NCBI GenBank assembly: GCA_002731275.1 | Contig: PCBK01000053.1 | Coordinates: 1-32,206, forward strand | DNA: 32,206 nucleotides | From: Deltaproteobacteria bacterium | GTDB taxonomy: Bacteria; Myxococcota_C; UBA6777 | Reading direction: 5' to 3' | Shown: positions 3,775 through 17,675 of the stretch, one piece after another | Position numbering within the stretch: position 1 is the stretch's first letter | How the letters are laid out: each line of letters begins with the position of its first letter | Made by a program: the position numbers and the translations under genes | The notes under the pieces: model-generated | The model's input: only the letters and a program-made list of their open reading frames with translations | What the model was told of the DNA's origin: nothing | The model's database searches: none

Positions 3775-4365
3775 TTATAGTTTGACGGAGCTGCCACCGA
3801 GCAGGCTGGAGAACATCCAGAGATACTTCTCATGATGTTGCAAAAAGGCAGTCAACAGGTCGGCTGTTCCTGGGTCTTTCGCTTCTTCTGCGGCTTCGAT
3901 TCCATCTTTGAAGCGGCTCACCACGAAGTCGATGTCCCGTGTCAGGTGTTCGATCATCTCTTTGGCTGTCTGTGCTTCTTCATCAAAGCTCAAAATGGAG
4001 AGCGAGTCATACGTCTTAAAGTTCGCTGGCGCGAAAAACTTCTTCATTCTGATTCGTTCGGCCAATTCGTCAATGTCTCCATCAAGAACTGTGTAGTACT
4101 CCTCAGTCATCTTGTGGATGGAGTCAAACAGTGGACCTTCAACATTCCAGTGGATCTCCTGGACTTTGAGTCGTAAGAGGTAATTGTCTGCGAGGATTCC
4201 CGCGAGCACACGGCTGATTTGCTTGTCTAGCTCGCTCGCGCCTTCTGGCAGTGATTGGGGAGGGATGACTGAACGTGTATCACCTACGTGCTCAACGCGC
4301 TTTTGTGCATGGTTTTTGTTGCGTGTGTTTGTGTTCGTTCGTTCGTTCGTTTGGTAAATAGCCAT
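3775..4365 (-). CDS. dps: Dps-family ferritin-like DNA-protection protein
   Basis: A 196-residue member of the Dps family, which forms a hollow 12-mer that oxidises Fe(II) with peroxide, stores the iron and can coat DNA in stress. The intersubunit ferroxidase ligands have the family spacing: H72 (in IHWNVEGP), H84, E88, D99 and E103 (in DIDELAERI). E88 replaces the more common Asp. The N-terminal tail of about 45 residues is long and rich in Asn, Thr, Arg and Lys, a composition used by other Dps proteins for DNA binding. Its first codons contain four tandem GTTC tetranucleotides (4333-4348). The ATG at 4365 has AAGGAG 8 nt upstream. A partly palindromic site at 4419-4436 may be an operator. 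It could be co-transcribed with the mscS-like gene, suggesting a shared stress role. Confidence 0.95.
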   Translation of the reverse strand: MAIYQTNERTNTNTRNKNHAQKRVEHVGDTRSVIPPQSLPEGASELDKQISRVLAGILADNYLLRLKVQEIHWNVEGPLFDSIHKMTEEYYTVLDGDIDELAERIRMKKFFAPANFKTYDSLSILSFDEEAQTAKEMIEHLTRDIDFVVSRFKDGIEAAEEAKDPGTADLLTAFLQHHEKYLWMFSSLLGGSSVKL

Positions 4366-4418: not shown

Positions 4419-4436
4419 CATAGAGCATGAACTATG
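4419..4436. promoter_or_regulatory. Imperfect palindrome upstream of dps (candidate operator)
   Basis: CATAGAGCATGAACTATG has 14 of 18 positions in dyad symmetry and lies 54-71 nt upstream of the dps start. The ATAG/CTAT half-sites recall OxyR sites, but the spacing is 8 rather than the OxyR 7, so the regulator is not identified. Confidence 0.3.
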
Positions 4437-4661
4437 CCATTGGATGTTTTCGTTATTTGTTTCAGTTGCTTATGTGTGGATTTGTGCCTTAGAGGGAATG
4501 ATGCTGTGGGTGTTTTGTTTCCCTTTTTGAGCTGAGGTGTGTTGTGTGTGTTCCCGTTTTTGTTCTTTTGGGCTGCGGAATGTTTGTTTTTGGGAGTTTT
4601 TGTTTTCTTGAGATGTGTTTTTCCCGTTTTTTACAACAAGTCATCTCATTTTCCCTGCTGG

Positions 4662-4687
4662 TGACACGCTTGGGGCTTGGCGTGACA
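4662..4687. promoter_or_regulatory. Inverted repeat, candidate enhancer-binding-protein site
   Basis: TGACACGC-N10-GCGTGACA has 7 of 8 paired positions. Its centre is about 119 bp upstream of the start predicted from the sigma-54 promoter at 4768, within the usual range for NtrC-type activators. An AT-rich stretch (4711-4740) lies between the two and could help DNA bending. No clear IHF consensus was found. Confidence 0.45.
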
Positions 4688-4767
4688 GGTGCGATGTGCG
4701 AAGAGGGGCCTATTATATAATGATAATGCCATTGAAAAAACTCTTTTGATACAGGGTTCTCTTAAGC

Positions 4768-4783
4768 TGGCATGTGTCTTGCT
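4768..4783 (+). promoter_or_regulatory. Sigma-54 (RpoN) promoter
   Basis: TGGCATG-TGTC-TTGCT matches the -24/-12 consensus (TGGCACG-N4-TTGCW) with a single change. The invariant GG (4769-4770) and GC (4781-4782) have the obligatory 10-nt spacing, and the preceding base is the preferred pyrimidine. It predicts a start near 4794 and a leader of about 99 nt for the gene at 4893. A full match of this quality is expected by chance well under once in a window this size (rough estimate from base frequencies). Confidence 0.75.
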
Positions 4784-4817
4784 CATATATCGGGGCGACT
4801 GATGCAGAACATAACAT

Positions 4818-4884
4818 GACCTTCACGGAAGAAGGTCAAAACAACCTCTTCACGGATTGAAGAGGGATACACACACAAAAGGAG
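4818..4884 (+). promoter_or_regulatory. 5' leader with two GGA-loop hairpins, CsrA/RsmE-like target
   Basis: Hairpin 1 is GACCTTC-ACGGAA-GAAGGTC (4818-4837). Hairpin 2 is CCTCTTCA-CGGAT-TGAAGAGG (4845-4865). Both stems are perfect and both present CTTCACGGA with the GGA in the loop. UCACGGAAGA in hairpin 1 fits the published CsrA/RsmE consensus (A/U)CANGGANG(U/A) completely, and hairpin 2 misses one position. A third GGA is the Shine-Dalgarno itself (AAGGAG, 4879-4884). The three GGA motifs start at 4827, 4854 and 4881, exactly 27 nt apart. This suggests translational control by a CsrA-type dimer, but binding is inferred. Confidence 0.6.
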
Positions 4885-4892
4885 AACAAGAT

Positions 4893-5165
4893 ATGGAAAA
4901 GCGTATGTTTGATAAAACAAGACGTCAGATTGAGATGGAACGTGATTATTTGAAACTTCGTATGCACTTGATGAAGCAGGACGCCAAAGACGAGTGGGAG
5001 AAGCTCGAAGGCAAGTGGGGTGAGTTGGAAGACTCCATGCGTTTGATGAAGTACGATGCCGAGAAGACCGGCGAAAAAGTCACAGAGTCCCTTGGTGAAG
5101 CGGCTGAAGAGTTGAAGAAGGGATACGAGAAGTTCCGTGAACGATTGACCAAGCCGCTCAAATAA
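4893..5165 (+). CDS. Small highly charged coiled-coil protein
   Basis: A 90-residue soluble protein with no signal peptide. It is almost entirely predicted helix, with dense Lys/Glu/Asp and heptad-spaced Leu, Met and Trp (for example YLKLRMHLMKQDAKDEWEKL), and an internal near-repeat of the type 'LrMhLMKqDAkdEWEKL / MRLMKYDAEKTGEKV'. This indicates an amphipathic helical hairpin or oligomeric coiled coil. I do not recognise a family. The ATG at 4893 has AAGGAG 8 nt upstream and was chosen over a TTG at 4857, which lies inside a leader hairpin. It sits alone behind a sigma-54 promoter and a GGA-hairpin leader, so expression is probably conditional (stress, envelope or developmental signal). 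Its last 8 nt overlap the 3' end of the convergent LRR gene. Confidence 0.85.
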   Translation: MEKRMFDKTRRQIEMERDYLKLRMHLMKQDAKDEWEKLEGKWGELEDSMRLMKYDAEKTGEKVTESLGEAAEELKKGYEKFRERLTKPLK

Positions 5166-6681
5166 TCGACTTCTCTGTCAGAGGGGAGCGTGTCTGCGCG
5201 AGAAGCTCGATGAGCGCGTGTTGATGCCTTTCAACAGGGAGTCCGCGACGACGGGCTTCCTGTTGTAGCGTATCCATACGAAGATTCCACAGATGTTTTT
5301 TACGTAACTCCGGCGCGAGATGGGGAGATGTGCCGAGTATGCGATGACCTTCCTGACTGATTTCATTTTGCATAACATTGAACTGTTGAAGTTGCGAGAG
5401 GTTCGCTGCATGAGCGAGCTGCCAAGCACCTTCGTCACTGAGTCCACACTGATCGAGTGAGAGGGTCCGAAGTGAACGCGCTTGTGGTGCGTTTACGAGT
5501 TGGAATACCCCTTCATCTCCGAGTGGACATCCTGTGAGGTATAACCGCTGTAATTGTTTGATGTGGGGTGAGTGGAGGAGTGTACCAAGCGCCTCTGCGT
5601 CGATCTGACAACCTGCCAAAGAGAGCGAGCGCAATTGTGACATGTGGGGAGATTGTGCGAGCGCTTTTAGCCCATCTGGCCCAATATGACATCCACTTAC
5701 ATCGAGATGTTGGAGTCGCTTCATCGTAGGCGAAAAGGCGAGCACCTCCAGCGCACCATCCCAAATTCCAGGGTTCAATCCGAGGTCGAGCTGTGTGAGC
5801 TGCGTCATATTGCGAGCGTGTGCGAGCGCTTCGACCCCATCGAGACCAATGCGATTGCATTTGATATGTAGTGTGTTGATCTGTGTAAGGTGAGGCGAAC
5901 GTGTCAGGGCGATCAGGCCGTGGTCTTTGATATTGTTAAAGGCGAGCTGGAGTGTGCGCAAAGAGCCCATATGTTCTGCTTGCGAGATGGCTTCCATTCC
6001 GTGAGAACGGATGTGACATCCATCGAGCTGAAGCCGTGTGAGACGGTTCAGGTAGGGAGATGTCGCGAGCTGATGGGCACCCTCAGGACCCATTCGGTTG
6101 TCCTCTACGTTCAACTCTTCAAGTGATGAAAAGGCTGGGTTTTGTGCAATACTCGCGAGCCCCTCTGCGCTGAGCTTGCAGTGTCGAAGGGAGAGCTGTG
6201 TGAGCGCGTGGAGGGTTGTGTCTGTGAAGAGCACATCAAGTCCTCTGTCGCCAAGTGGATTGTTGTTCAGATTGAGTTGTTTGAGTGATGAGAGGTGGGG
6301 GGAGTGTGTGAAGAATTGAAGATGGGAAGGGTCAAGTCCAGAGGCTTCGAGGTTGAGTCGTATGAGTGATGAGAGGTGGGGGGACTGTGCGACATGTCGG
6401 GCCTGCTGCCCATCCAGACTCTTGTAACTCGCTTGCAGGTGTCTGACGAGTCGCAGCGTGGGGGGCGGCTGCTTGGGGTGTCGCCCCGGCCAGACGTGAC
6501 GAATGGAGGCGAGCCGGTCGTGGTCCTCCCACGAGTCCAGATGTGCGAGTATGTAAGGCAAGACATGTTCGTGATGTTGCCATCGTCGCAAGAGCGGGAA
6601 GAGTTGACCAAAATGTGCCTTTGAAGGGACACTGAGCAATCTACGTAATTGTGCAAAAAGTTCCAGATCTTCGTTGTTCAT
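5158..6681 (-). CDS. Leucine-rich-repeat protein B (ribonuclease-inhibitor type)
   Basis: A 507-residue protein without a signal peptide. An N-terminal helical region (about 1-90) is followed by roughly 13-14 LRRs of 24-28 residues (pattern LxxLxLxxNxIgdeGxxaLaxSPH), which form a curved protein-binding scaffold. The tail (LRMDTLQQEARRRGLPVER, then ALIELLAQ) resembles the SAP helix-turn-helix fold ('L..E...RGLP...K..LI..L'), which in other proteins binds nucleic acid. The start ATG overlaps the stop of the upstream paralog by 4 nt (ATGA), and no good ribosome site precedes it, so translation is probably coupled. It is about the same length as that paralog, with homologous N- and C-terminal regions, indicating gene duplication. 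The partner is unknown. Confidence 0.88.
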   Translation of the reverse strand: MNNEDLELFAQLRRLLSVPSKAHFGQLFPLLRRWQHHEHVLPYILAHLDSWEDHDRLASIRHVWPGRHPKQPPPTLRLVRHLQASYKSLDGQQARHVAQSPHLSSLIRLNLEASGLDPSHLQFFTHSPHLSSLKQLNLNNNPLGDRGLDVLFTDTTLHALTQLSLRHCKLSAEGLASIAQNPAFSSLEELNVEDNRMGPEGAHQLATSPYLNRLTRLQLDGCHIRSHGMEAISQAEHMGSLRTLQLAFNNIKDHGLIALTRSPHLTQINTLHIKCNRIGLDGVEALAHARNMTQLTQLDLGLNPGIWDGALEVLAFSPTMKRLQHLDVSGCHIGPDGLKALAQSPHMSQLRSLSLAGCQIDAEALGTLLHSPHIKQLQRLYLTGCPLGDEGVFQLVNAPQARSLRTLSLDQCGLSDEGAWQLAHAANLSQLQQFNVMQNEISQEGHRILGTSPHLAPELRKKHLWNLRMDTLQQEARRRGLPVERHQHALIELLAQTRSPLTEKSII

Positions 6682-8219
6682 GTCGATATCTCGTCGAGTA
6701 GTGCTGCGATGATTTCGTCTGTCTCTACGTTTGGATCAATGGAGAGCCCTTTGTCTTGTGCCGCCTGCAACAGGTCATGTTGTGTACACTGTGCAAGGCA
6801 CTGTCGTCGAATATGTCGAGGGAGTTGTTCAGCATTGGCCAAGCCCAAGTAGCCCCTTGGGCCGATGCGACAATGCTGGAGTTGTAATGTCCGAAGCTGC
6901 CCAAGATGGGGAGCGCGCGCGAGCTGTAATGCACCTTCGTCTCCGAGCGGGTTGGACATGAGGTTGAGTGTGTGAAGTTGTCCGAGCAGGGGAGATGTTG
7001 CGAGCGCTCCTATCCCCTCCGCGTCCAACTCTGTCCGTTCGAGTGAGAGAGTGTGAAGCTGTGGTAGCTGTGATGTCTGCAAGAGCGCAGACACACCTGT
7101 ATTCTCAAGTGGATTGAAGGATACATCCAGTCTCTCCAACTGCGCAAAGGACTTGGGTGTGTGAAAGTGTTGTATACTCTCCGCTGAGAGCTGATTATCC
7201 CGAAGAGTGAGTGAGGTGAGTTGTGGAGAGAGTGTGCTCTCACTCAGCGCTGAGAGTCCATGCGTGGAGAGGCGAGTCCGTGAGAGGTTGAGTTCTCGAA
7301 GAGCAGGTAGTGTCGTGCATTGTGCGAGTGTGAAAAGACCTTCATCGAGCAATGGGTTGTTGGCCAATGAGAGGGTCTGTAATTGCGCGAGATGAGGGGA
7401 GCGTGTGAGTAGCGCGATACCTTTGGGGGTGAGCTCGTTGTCTTCGAGAGAGAGCGATGTCATCTGCGCCATCGAGGGGGCGCTCACTAAAGAGCGAAGC
7501 CCCGCGTCACCGAGCGTGTTGCGACTGAGATCCAACGCTCGTAATCCAGTCAAAAAGAAGGAGCTGCTGAGGGCGACGAGACCTTCAACGCCGATACGGT
7601 TGGCCGCAAGATCGAGCCGTGTCAATGCCGTCATATAGGGAGAATCTGCGATCGCGATCGCGCCTTCGTCCTGGATATTGTTTTTGGCGAGCGAGAGCGT
7701 TGTCAGTGAGGCGAGACTCTCTGCCTCCATCAACACGGTGGTGCCGTCTGGACCGAGCAGGTTGTTGTCGAGTCTGAGTGCTTGAGGTGCGGGAGCGCTC
7801 GGTGCGTGAAAGAGGCGCTTGATTTTCTCTATATTTTGTTTGCTTGTACCATGTTGTCGACTCCGGGCACGCAAATCCAACGTGGTGATGTCTTGCAAAT
7901 AGGTGGATTGCACGAGTTGGTCGATGTCTTCTGACGAGAATGTCGCCAAATCGAAGGAGAGTGTCCGCACCAGGGAGAAAGGGGGCTGTGACGGACCTTC
8001 TGGATAGTCTGGCCAGCACGAAGAGAGATCGAAGAAGCGGATCGTATCGCTCCATCCTTCGAGGTGGTCTCGTGCGTAGAGCAACCCAACCTCTCTCGAT
8101 TTTGGTTCGTCCCAGTGACGAAAGAGACGAAGGACCTGAGCAAAATGTTTGCGTGTGGGAGGTTGCGCAAGTAACTCTCTTAGTTTGGAGAGGTAACCTT
8201 GTACGTGATTGTGTTCCAT
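6678..8219 (-). CDS. Leucine-rich-repeat protein A (ribonuclease-inhibitor type)
   Basis: A 513-residue paralog of the downstream LRR protein. It has an N-terminal region of about 95 residues (LRELLAQPPTRKHFAQVLRL; the paralog has LRRLLSVPSKAHFGQLF), then about 13-14 LRRs such as LTSLSLEDNELTPKGIALL, then a SAP-like tail (QHDLLQAAQDKGLSID, then DEIIAALL). No secretion signal is visible, so a cytoplasmic scaffold or regulator is likely. The ATG at 8219 has GGAG 11 nt upstream, a rather long spacing. It is the first gene of a two-gene operon. The 440 bp upstream contains an A-rich stretch (minus-strand sense, 8373-8396) but no promoter I can define. The biochemical role is not known. Confidence 0.88.
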   Translation of the reverse strand: MEHNHVQGYLSKLRELLAQPPTRKHFAQVLRLFRHWDEPKSREVGLLYARDHLEGWSDTIRFFDLSSCWPDYPEGPSQPPFSLVRTLSFDLATFSSEDIDQLVQSTYLQDITTLDLRARSRQHGTSKQNIEKIKRLFHAPSAPAPQALRLDNNLLGPDGTTVLMEAESLASLTTLSLAKNNIQDEGAIAIADSPYMTALTRLDLAANRIGVEGLVALSSSFFLTGLRALDLSRNTLGDAGLRSLVSAPSMAQMTSLSLEDNELTPKGIALLTRSPHLAQLQTLSLANNPLLDEGLFTLAQCTTLPALRELNLSRTRLSTHGLSALSESTLSPQLTSLTLRDNQLSAESIQHFHTPKSFAQLERLDVSFNPLENTGVSALLQTSQLPQLHTLSLERTELDAEGIGALATSPLLGQLHTLNLMSNPLGDEGALQLARAPHLGQLRTLQLQHCRIGPRGYLGLANAEQLPRHIRRQCLAQCTQHDLLQAAQDKGLSIDPNVETDEIIAALLDEIST

Positions 8220-15167: not shown

Positions 15168-17675
15168 TTAATCGATACTTCCATCACAATCGTTATCGAG
15201 ACCGTCTTGTTTTTCGGGGTAGGGGAGGGTCTCTTTGCGACAGACTCCCCAATCACCTCGACTTGTGCAGGTGCGTGTCCCCGTTTTACAGACACCTCGC
15301 CCTTGTGTCCCAACTGGACCGGTGTAGCAAGGCTCTGTTGTTCCGGGTTGACAACGACATTGCCAGAGTCTGATCAGGCCAGGGGTGTTACTCGCGAGCT
15401 GATCGCCTGCTCCCCAGACGATCTGGTGGGCGTCGCTCTTGAATGTGTGCATGTGTTTTCCGAGATACAGATCCCAAAAGCGTATGGTGCCGTCCTTGGA
15501 AGCGGAGCTTAGATAGTGTTTGGAGGGGTGGAAGGAGAGATGGAGGACTTCGTCTGTGTGTCCTGTGAGGACGAATTTTGTGGTGTGATTTGTCAATGTC
15601 CAGATGCGGAGTTCTTTATCTTTCCCACCGGAGGCCAGGAGTTCTCCGTCATGAGAGAGGGCGACACTGATGATCTCTCCACTGTGTCCTCGGAGGGTTT
15701 GTTCGAGTGTGCCTGTTTGGATATCCCAGATCTTGATCAGAGTGTCCGATGAAGCTGTGATGAGACGTTTGCCATCAGGGTGAAAGAGCGCGGCGTTGAT
15801 GCGTTTGGTGTGTCCATTTTTGATGGTTTGGATGAGGGTGCCTTTGACGGGGTCCCAGATCTTCACGTCACCGTTTTGTTCGACAGAGACGAGTTGTTTG
15901 CCATCCTTGCTGTACGCGAGGCTGGCGAGGAAGGTGTTCTTGAGCAGGATCAGCCGTGGTTTGTTGCTCCCTGCATCGTAGAGGAGGAGGCCTTCTGCGC
16001 CGTGGCTTTGGTTTGCGACGGCGAGCCCTGTTGCGTCCTCTGTCAGCGCGACTGCGGGCGTCGGATAGCCTCGGAAGGATGGGCGTAGCTCGATCCGTTT
16101 GACGTGTTTGTGGGTGCTGGTCTCCCACAGATCACAGTGGGCGCTGTAGCAGGTGAGCAGCCACTTGCCATTTTTGGTGAGGACCATGCTTTTGACACCT
16201 GTATGTGGACTGTGTCCTGGAAAGACTGTGTATTCAGGTTGGTGTGTTTGGTGATTCCAGACACGTACGTTGTGTCCACCTGTTGCGAGGACAAGGCGTC
16301 TCTTTGGATCGAAGGCGACTTGGGAGGTATCAGCGCGCAGTGAGGTGATGTATTTTCCTGTCGAAAGCTCCCACAGCTCCAATTGTGTGGTGCCGATCGC
16401 GAGGGTTAGATTGTCAGGAGAGAAGAAGAGATAGCGCGCGAAGCTGACCTTTGGTTGGATGGAGCGGACCTTTTTGAGTGTCGTGAGATCCCAGACCTCG
16501 ACGGGGGTGCGATCGTTGAAGTTTGTAAACGCGAGCCAACGACCATTTGGGCTTAGTGCTATGCTCGTCCCAGTGTTGTTGTACGATTTGATGATCCTCT
16601 TGAGGCGTTGTGTGGAAAGCTCCCACTGTTTGATCTGGTGGGTCGCGATAAACATGTCTTTGCCATCTGGTGTAAAGGCCATACCTCCTATGTTCGCTGG
16701 GTAGGGGTAGCCCGGAAGAGGTGTTTGGCTTTGACCTGTGAGGATATCCCAAAAGCGCAGGCGGTAGGAGCCAGAGGCGAGCGTCCGACCATCAGGATGA
16801 AGCGCGAGGTGGAACGCCGGCTGCACATGTCCCTTGAGATCGCGCGTCAACTGCGCGGTCTGTGCGTCCCAGACTTTGACCATATTGTCACCTGAAGAGG
16901 CCGTAATGATCGTCTTTCCATTGGGCGCGAGGATCATACTGTGGATGCGACCTGTGTGCCCTTTGAATTGCCTCAAAAGTTCACCCGTTGCGACCGCGCG
17001 TGCTTGTATCTCGTTGTCTTTGCCAAAGTAGATCGTCTTGCCATCTTGACTAAACGAGATCCCTGCGACTGAGCGGGCGTCTCCAATTAAATCATCGAGG
17101 ACCACAGGCATACATGGCGCGCAGCCTTCGTTGATTTGGCCATCACAGTCGTTGTCCTTGTCGTCACACAATTCTTTTGATGGGAGTATCTGTTGTGTAC
17201 ACGCTGACCACGTCCCATCCGGTTGACAGCGTTGAACGCCTGCCTGACACGCACCCACGTCTTTTGTTCCTGTGGGACCTGTGTAACATACGCGCTCCTG
17301 GCCGGAGACACACTCCGTCTCTGGGAGCGATGGTTCTGGGCCGGGAGGTTCTGGACGCAGCTCGGTGGTGGGCGCTGGCTCTGTGGGGGGTTCTTCTGGT
17401 GTGGCTTCGTTGGCGTCTTGTGTCGGTTGTTCGGGTGTTGTCGTGGGTTTGGGTTTGGTGCAGTTGCCGTCGATACAGATCATGCCTGTGGGGCACTCCG
17501 TGTTGTCGATACAAGGCCACTCATCTGGCATAAACCAGATGTATGATGAGCACCCAAAGACCGAGAATATGAGATAGAAAGACAGCACAATGGGGAACCA
17601 TTGGCCAGCTCTTTTTTTCTTCTCGTGGTTTGGGGGTGGAGAGAGAGACGTTCTTTGTTTTGATGTATCACGCAT
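15168..17675 (-). CDS. WD40-repeat lipoprotein flanked by MopE-type modules
   Basis: An 835-residue protein starting at ATG 17675. A basic N-terminus and a hydrophobic segment end in FSVFGC, giving a likely lipidated Cys42. Then come a small Cys-rich segment (CIDNTECPTGMICIDGNC), a Pro/Glu/Thr linker of about 50 residues, and a MopE-type module (CYTGP, later CDDKDNDCDGQINEGC). About a dozen WD40 repeats (for example GHTGRIHSMILAPNGKTI, VKVWDAQTAQL) probably form one or two propellers for protein binding. The C-terminus carries a second CYTGP module that stops within the metal motif (GLDNDCDGSID), with no following Cys. A TTG start 14 codons upstream is possible, but neither start has a strong ribosome site. 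Propellers on lipoproteins usually act as envelope scaffolds. The partner is unknown. Confidence 0.88.
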   Translation of the reverse strand: MRDTSKQRTSLSPPPNHEKKKRAGQWFPIVLSFYLIFSVFGCSSYIWFMPDEWPCIDNTECPTGMICIDGNCTKPKPTTTPEQPTQDANEATPEEPPTEPAPTTELRPEPPGPEPSLPETECVSGQERVCYTGPTGTKDVGACQAGVQRCQPDGTWSACTQQILPSKELCDDKDNDCDGQINEGCAPCMPVVLDDLIGDARSVAGISFSQDGKTIYFGKDNEIQARAVATGELLRQFKGHTGRIHSMILAPNGKTIITASSGDNMVKVWDAQTAQLTRDLKGHVQPAFHLALHPDGRTLASGSYRLRFWDILTGQSQTPLPGYPYPANIGGMAFTPDGKDMFIATHQIKQWELSTQRLKRIIKSYNNTGTSIALSPNGRWLAFTNFNDRTPVEVWDLTTLKKVRSIQPKVSFARYLFFSPDNLTLAIGTTQLELWELSTGKYITSLRADTSQVAFDPKRRLVLATGGHNVRVWNHQTHQPEYTVFPGHSPHTGVKSMVLTKNGKWLLTCYSAHCDLWETSTHKHVKRIELRPSFRGYPTPAVALTEDATGLAVANQSHGAEGLLLYDAGSNKPRLILLKNTFLASLAYSKDGKQLVSVEQNGDVKIWDPVKGTLIQTIKNGHTKRINAALFHPDGKRLITASSDTLIKIWDIQTGTLEQTLRGHSGEIISVALSHDGELLASGGKDKELRIWTLTNHTTKFVLTGHTDEVLHLSFHPSKHYLSSASKDGTIRFWDLYLGKHMHTFKSDAHQIVWGAGDQLASNTPGLIRLWQCRCQPGTTEPCYTGPVGTQGRGVCKTGTRTCTSRGDWGVCRKETLPYPEKQDGLDNDCDGSID

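Follow-up and report, generated by a model that had tools for sequence, protein, structure and literature searches.

The window analysed here, a stretch of 32,206 nucleotides, comes from a 10.75-Mb draft genome whose phylum is represented in the searched set by five genomes of a single family. Two divergently oriented genes, one for a Dps/ferritin-like protein and one for a small charged protein, are separated by an intergenic region with putative elements of transcriptional and translational control:

3775 to 4365, minus strand: Dps/ferritin-like gene (Pfam Ferritin, E = 4.5e-23; NCBIfam Dps below the equivalog cut-off)
4424 to 4439, minus strand: sigma-54-like promoter TGGCATAGTTCATGCT of the Dps gene, with one mismatch to the consensus and GGGGT at the start-site position
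4662 to 4687, no strand assigned: inverted repeat TGACACGC-N10-GCGTGACA, paired at 7 of 8 positions; candidate upstream activating site
4768 to 4783, plus strand: sigma-54 -24/-12 promoter TGGCATGTGTCTTGCT, an exact match to TGGCAN6TTGCW
4792 to 4796, plus strand: GGGGC motif where transcription is expected to begin, at about 4794
4817 to 4838, plus strand: hairpin 1, an 8-bp stem with an ACGGAA hexaloop; candidate CsrA/RsmE-type high-affinity site
4845 to 4865, plus strand: hairpin 2, with the same CTTCACGGA; its loop reads ACGGAUU, or CGGAU if closed by an A-U pair; second candidate CsrA-type site
4880 to 4884, plus strand: Shine-Dalgarno sequence AGGAG, single-stranded in the predicted fold; third GGA (AAAGGA)
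4893 to 5165, plus strand: gene for a 90-aa charged, coiled-coil-like protein with weak likeness to the sll1863 stress-response family

The 90-aa product is probably a coiled-coil protein. Its score against the NCBIfam model NF052504 (E = 0.0059, 16.8 bits) lies below the cut-off of 35, which leaves it outside the sll1863 family proper; in Synechocystis, several stresses are listed as inducers of sll1863 (PMC6789579). A single homologue was found, with 40% identity, in a Planctomycetales MAG. A paralogue that resembles sll1863 (L043) lacks the hairpins but does have a sigma-54 promoter. Elsewhere in the window, a near-repeat lies at the left edge (64-397), where overlapping ORFs read NRALGGCRLRH(S/T)YDHE twice, and two adjoining ORFs of about 510 aa occupy 5158-8219, the first of which matches many leucine-rich-repeat models and the second of which is similar by eye.

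Sigma-54-type promoter and upstream elements

The -24/-12 element at 4768-4783 contains GG-N10-GC within TGGCAY-N5-TTGCW, and rpoN is present in the genome. The genome as a whole is enriched in the motif TGGCAYN5TTGC, which occurs at 50 sites; the reversed control occurs at 19. At six of 24 perfect sigma-54 sites, including that at 4768-4783, RGGGC follows TTGCW at a distance of 7-8 bases, compared to a background of 0.0014 per position. The inverted repeat at 4662-4687 precedes the -24 element by 81-106 bp and is plausible as a sigma-54 activator site; no other site in the genome matches TGACACGCN10GCGTGWCA without a mismatch, the pattern having been derived from this same site. On the basis of the perfect -24/-12 element, the presence of rpoN, the enrichment of the consensus, the start-site motif and the inverted repeat, sigma-54 control of the 90-aa gene, and perhaps also of the Dps gene, is therefore likely. 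The sigma-54 transcription proposed in the earlier note is thus supported by a perfect promoter, by rpoN and by a start-site motif common to other sigma-54 sites.

An extra motif, roughly TTGCTCTATGTGYGGGGCGWGAAC with RGGGC where the start is expected, is frequent at these promoters; it is observed at 4792-4796 and at loci L069, L073, L077, L083, L097, L116, L136, L204 and L211, and may mark a sub-class of the sigma-54-type promoters of this genome. Long inverted repeats are also found about 95-100 bp upstream of the sigma-54 sites of L204 (GTCCCTCCCA..TGAGAGGGAC) and L211 (TCGATTTTAGAC..GTCCAAAATCGA), and look like activator sites from their sequence. The inverted repeat at 4662-4687, placed between the Dps-like and 90-aa genes, could be a shared enhancer. 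The sequence TTGGCGTGACAGGTGC (about 4676-4692) was considered as a second -24/-12 element and dropped; it is read as half of the inverted repeat.

Leader hairpins and their similarity to Csr/Rsm sites

Read directly from the sequence, hairpin 1 is TGACCTTC-ACGGAA-GAAGGTCA and hairpin 2 is CCTCTTCA-CGGAT-TGAAGAGG, the latter with seven pairs and the A-U closing pair; both are perfect and each displays CTTCACGGA. The GGA motifs start at 4827, 4854 and 4881, giving two spacings of 27 nt each, and the third is the Shine-Dalgarno sequence, within AAAGGAG (4878-4884) and followed by the ATG at 4893. These positions agree with the earlier description of three equally spaced GGA motifs, two of them in perfect hairpin loops and the third provided by the Shine-Dalgarno sequence. 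As the third GGA is simply the Shine-Dalgarno sequence, the identical value of the two spacings is probably a coincidence that carries no meaning; the relevant point is that both are within a workable bridging range. Bridging of two sites by one CsrA dimer has been reported for distances of 10-63 nt, with an optimum above 18 (PMC7652899), and the 27-nt spacing falls inside this range.

Neither the loop nor the CUUC/GAAG upper stem varies between the two hairpins, whereas the three outer pairs adjoining the latter are changed on both sides with pairing kept (G-C/C-G, A-U/C-G and C-G/U-A). Such a pattern is expected if the protein recognizes no more than the loop and the upper stem, and it favours the view that selection acts on an RNA site with protein contacts ending at the upper stem. 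The compensatory differences are an internal counterpart of the covariation test suggested earlier, and no substitute for a comparison between species.

The leader RNA has a predicted folding energy of -26.2 kcal/mol, compared to a shuffle mean of -13.2 (z = -5.72; 0 of 200 shuffles as good), and for its 76-nt core z = -5.89. Both hairpins, each predicted at about -11 kcal/mol by itself, are present in the MFE and centroid structures, in which the Shine-Dalgarno sequence is unpaired. When the 100-nt leader was shuffled with its dinucleotides preserved, two separate GGA-loop hairpins scoring at least 6 pairs arose in one of 50,000 trials. A 2.41-Mb sample of the genome has 127 ANGGA-loop hairpins and a single tandem pair, which is this leader; for each of seven further loop triplets, the number of tandem pairs in the scan was 0 or 1. 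The hairpins are far beyond chance expectation.

According to the published rule, Csr/Rsm sites of high affinity consist of an ANGGAX hexaloop set directly on a stem (PMC4005645); hairpin 1 conforms to it exactly and hairpin 2 with one extra loop base. The core of hairpin 1, CUUCACGGAAGAAG (CUUC-ACGGAA-GAAG), shares 13 of 14 bases with the core GGGCUUCACGGAUGAAGCCC of the hcnA SD RNA, the ligand in the RsmE structure 2jpp (PMC13287468; PMC11882435); the single difference from the hcnA SD RNA core CUUCACGGAUGAAG is one looped-out base. Hairpin 2, with CUUCACGGAUUGAAG, has a U that the hcnA RNA lacks. Loop insertions reduce RsmE affinity (PMC4005645), and by analogy the extra U may lower the affinity of hairpin 2. 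Most CsrA hairpins selected by SELEX have four or fewer pairs (PMC7652899).

A search for csrA, as the earlier note had advised, identified a single copy in the genome (E = 4.7e-22), on contig C21, with a canonical sequence. Its 84-aa product keeps L4 and R44, and its best match among solved structures is RsmE (2jpp). The gene is also present in all four relatives, with one csrA per genome across the five genomes of the phylum (G000-G004). None of the five has FliW, a protein known to antagonize CsrA. An ANGGA hairpin loop, a GGA overlapping the Shine-Dalgarno sequence and a csrA with RNA-binding residues, as expected of a CsrA/RsmE-regulated leader, are thus all found. The earlier assignment of the loops to the CsrA/RsmE consensus holds for the hexaloop on its stem and for the core shared with the hcnA ligand, and the reading of the hairpins as CsrA/RsmE sites is well supported in silico.

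Distribution of the leader

When searched with a covariance model, the whole 10.75-Mb genome contains no match other than the leader itself, and the four relatives contain none. The 90-aa gene is absent from these four relatives, and the Planctomycetales homologue does not have such a leader. A scan with the TTCANGGA-hairpin pattern yielded 91 matches against 61 for the control, and at the 30 loci looked at most of the matches had no long stem; none of the sigma-54 leaders inspected has the hairpin pair. No Rfam family reaches its gathering score in the window; the best weak match of the leader is to an unrelated RNA (E = 0.45), and the CsrB/RsmZ-type and TwoAYGGAY families are absent from the match list up to E = 10. 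No relative was found in viral contigs. In the sampled genome, hairpins with an ANGGA loop are not clearly enriched upstream of genes (8/117, compared to 287/6148 for all triplets), and consequently no wider Csr regulon is visible by this strict criterion.

Proposed translational control and alternative readings

We consider it likely that the leader serves translational repression by CsrA of a sigma-54-transcribed, stress-type gene; the binding, the sign of the regulation and the start site are what we infer. Sigma-54 RNA polymerase would initiate transcription at about 4794, and the resulting leader of about 99 nt would fold into two stable hairpins presenting ACGGA loops. A CsrA dimer would bind hairpin 1 and/or hairpin 2 with high affinity; from there it would bridge either to the remaining hairpin or to the GGA of the Shine-Dalgarno sequence, a weak, single-stranded site, so that ribosomes are blocked. 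Titration or scarcity of CsrA would allow the small stress-type protein to be produced. Of the two layers of control suggested in the earlier note, the transcriptional layer is supported by the promoter and rpoN, and the translational layer is supported in silico by the sites and csrA, with binding as its conjectural step. Several observations speak against a role for CsrA: the leader is not conserved across species, no Csr regulon is visible, the loop of hairpin 2 has an extra base, the stems selected by SELEX are mostly of four pairs or fewer, the third site is merely the Shine-Dalgarno sequence, and the L043 paralogue lacks these hairpins.

The lack of conservation in relatives, together with the absence of a clear enrichment of GGA-loop hairpins upstream of genes, would also fit generic 5' hairpins that stabilize the transcript or tune translation, with GGA loops unrelated to CsrA. 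We regard this as rather unlikely, as it leaves unexplained why identical loops and upper stems that match the RsmE ligand are combined with differing outer stems. Alternatively, the inverted repeats of the leader could be DNA operators for a transcription factor, and a repressor could act at their location, which follows the inferred start by about 23-71 bp. However, the palindrome arms are unlike between the two copies, the part in common is an asymmetric loop with 4-bp upper arms, which is the pattern of an RNA site, and the genome has no other tandem copy; this alternative is very improbable.

The earlier note had also suggested that the leader could be a decoy similar to RsmZ. If this were its main role, as for RsmZ or McaS, an abundant sigma-54 transcript would titrate CsrA off other mRNAs. 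Two strong candidate sites are present on one short RNA, and, with FliW absent from all five genomes, another antagonist, perhaps an RNA, would be needed. Beyond the sites themselves we found nothing independent in favour of this idea, and the sites are two or three only, carried by an mRNA leader that has its own Shine-Dalgarno sequence and precedes a translated gene; moreover, no terminator-like stem with a T run occurs between the hairpins and the start codon, and the hairpin enrichment scan of the sampled genome did not reveal many other CsrA targets. A primary decoy function is therefore improbable. Still less do we expect a dual role, in which this sigma-54-driven leader, through its two hcnA-grade sites, would repress its own stress gene and also antagonize CsrA as an RNA, in a little-known phylum with CsrA and no FliW.

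Repression by CsrA through the leader would be a type of control that is already known, of which this locus is a further example. Repeated hairpins with AYGGA loops characterize the TwoAYGGAY motif and occur in the CsrB/RsmZ-type RNAs; in contrast to these, the present hairpins belong to a protein-coding leader, are only two in number and have no Rfam match at gathering score. Like glgC and similar CsrA-repressed leaders of E. coli, in which an upstream GGA in a hairpin loop is paired with a GGA at the Shine-Dalgarno sequence, the leader has both elements, though with two near-identical strong candidate hairpins and a promoter of the sigma-54 rather than the sigma-70 type. In both cases the two GGAs would be reachable by one CsrA dimer (distance rule, PMC7652899). 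The hairpin core CUUC-ACGGA-N-GAAG recurs in the 5' leader of hcnA of Pseudomonas fluorescens/protegens, which is regulated by RsmE (PDB 2jpp), carries several GGA sites and controls translation at the ribosome-binding site. Its best hairpin holds the Shine-Dalgarno sequence, whereas both hairpins here are upstream of a Shine-Dalgarno sequence predicted to be single-stranded, in a host from another phylum.

If CsrA does bind this leader, the RsmE rule established for pseudomonads (ANGGAX hexaloop, C-G/U-A upper stem) would apply almost to the letter in a distant phylum. We know of no CsrA target in the FliW-less lineage of the present host, for which the leader is a ready test target. Should the coupling to sigma-54 also be true, a stress-type gene would be controlled in its transcription as well as in its translation.

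On contig C69, a loop of this type is also presented by the hairpin AAACCAT-ACGGAC-ATGGTTT (L199:15308-15327). It is flanked by a sigma-54-like site at 15223 and by a lipoprotein-like ORF with its start near 15419, and is a possible second CsrA target.
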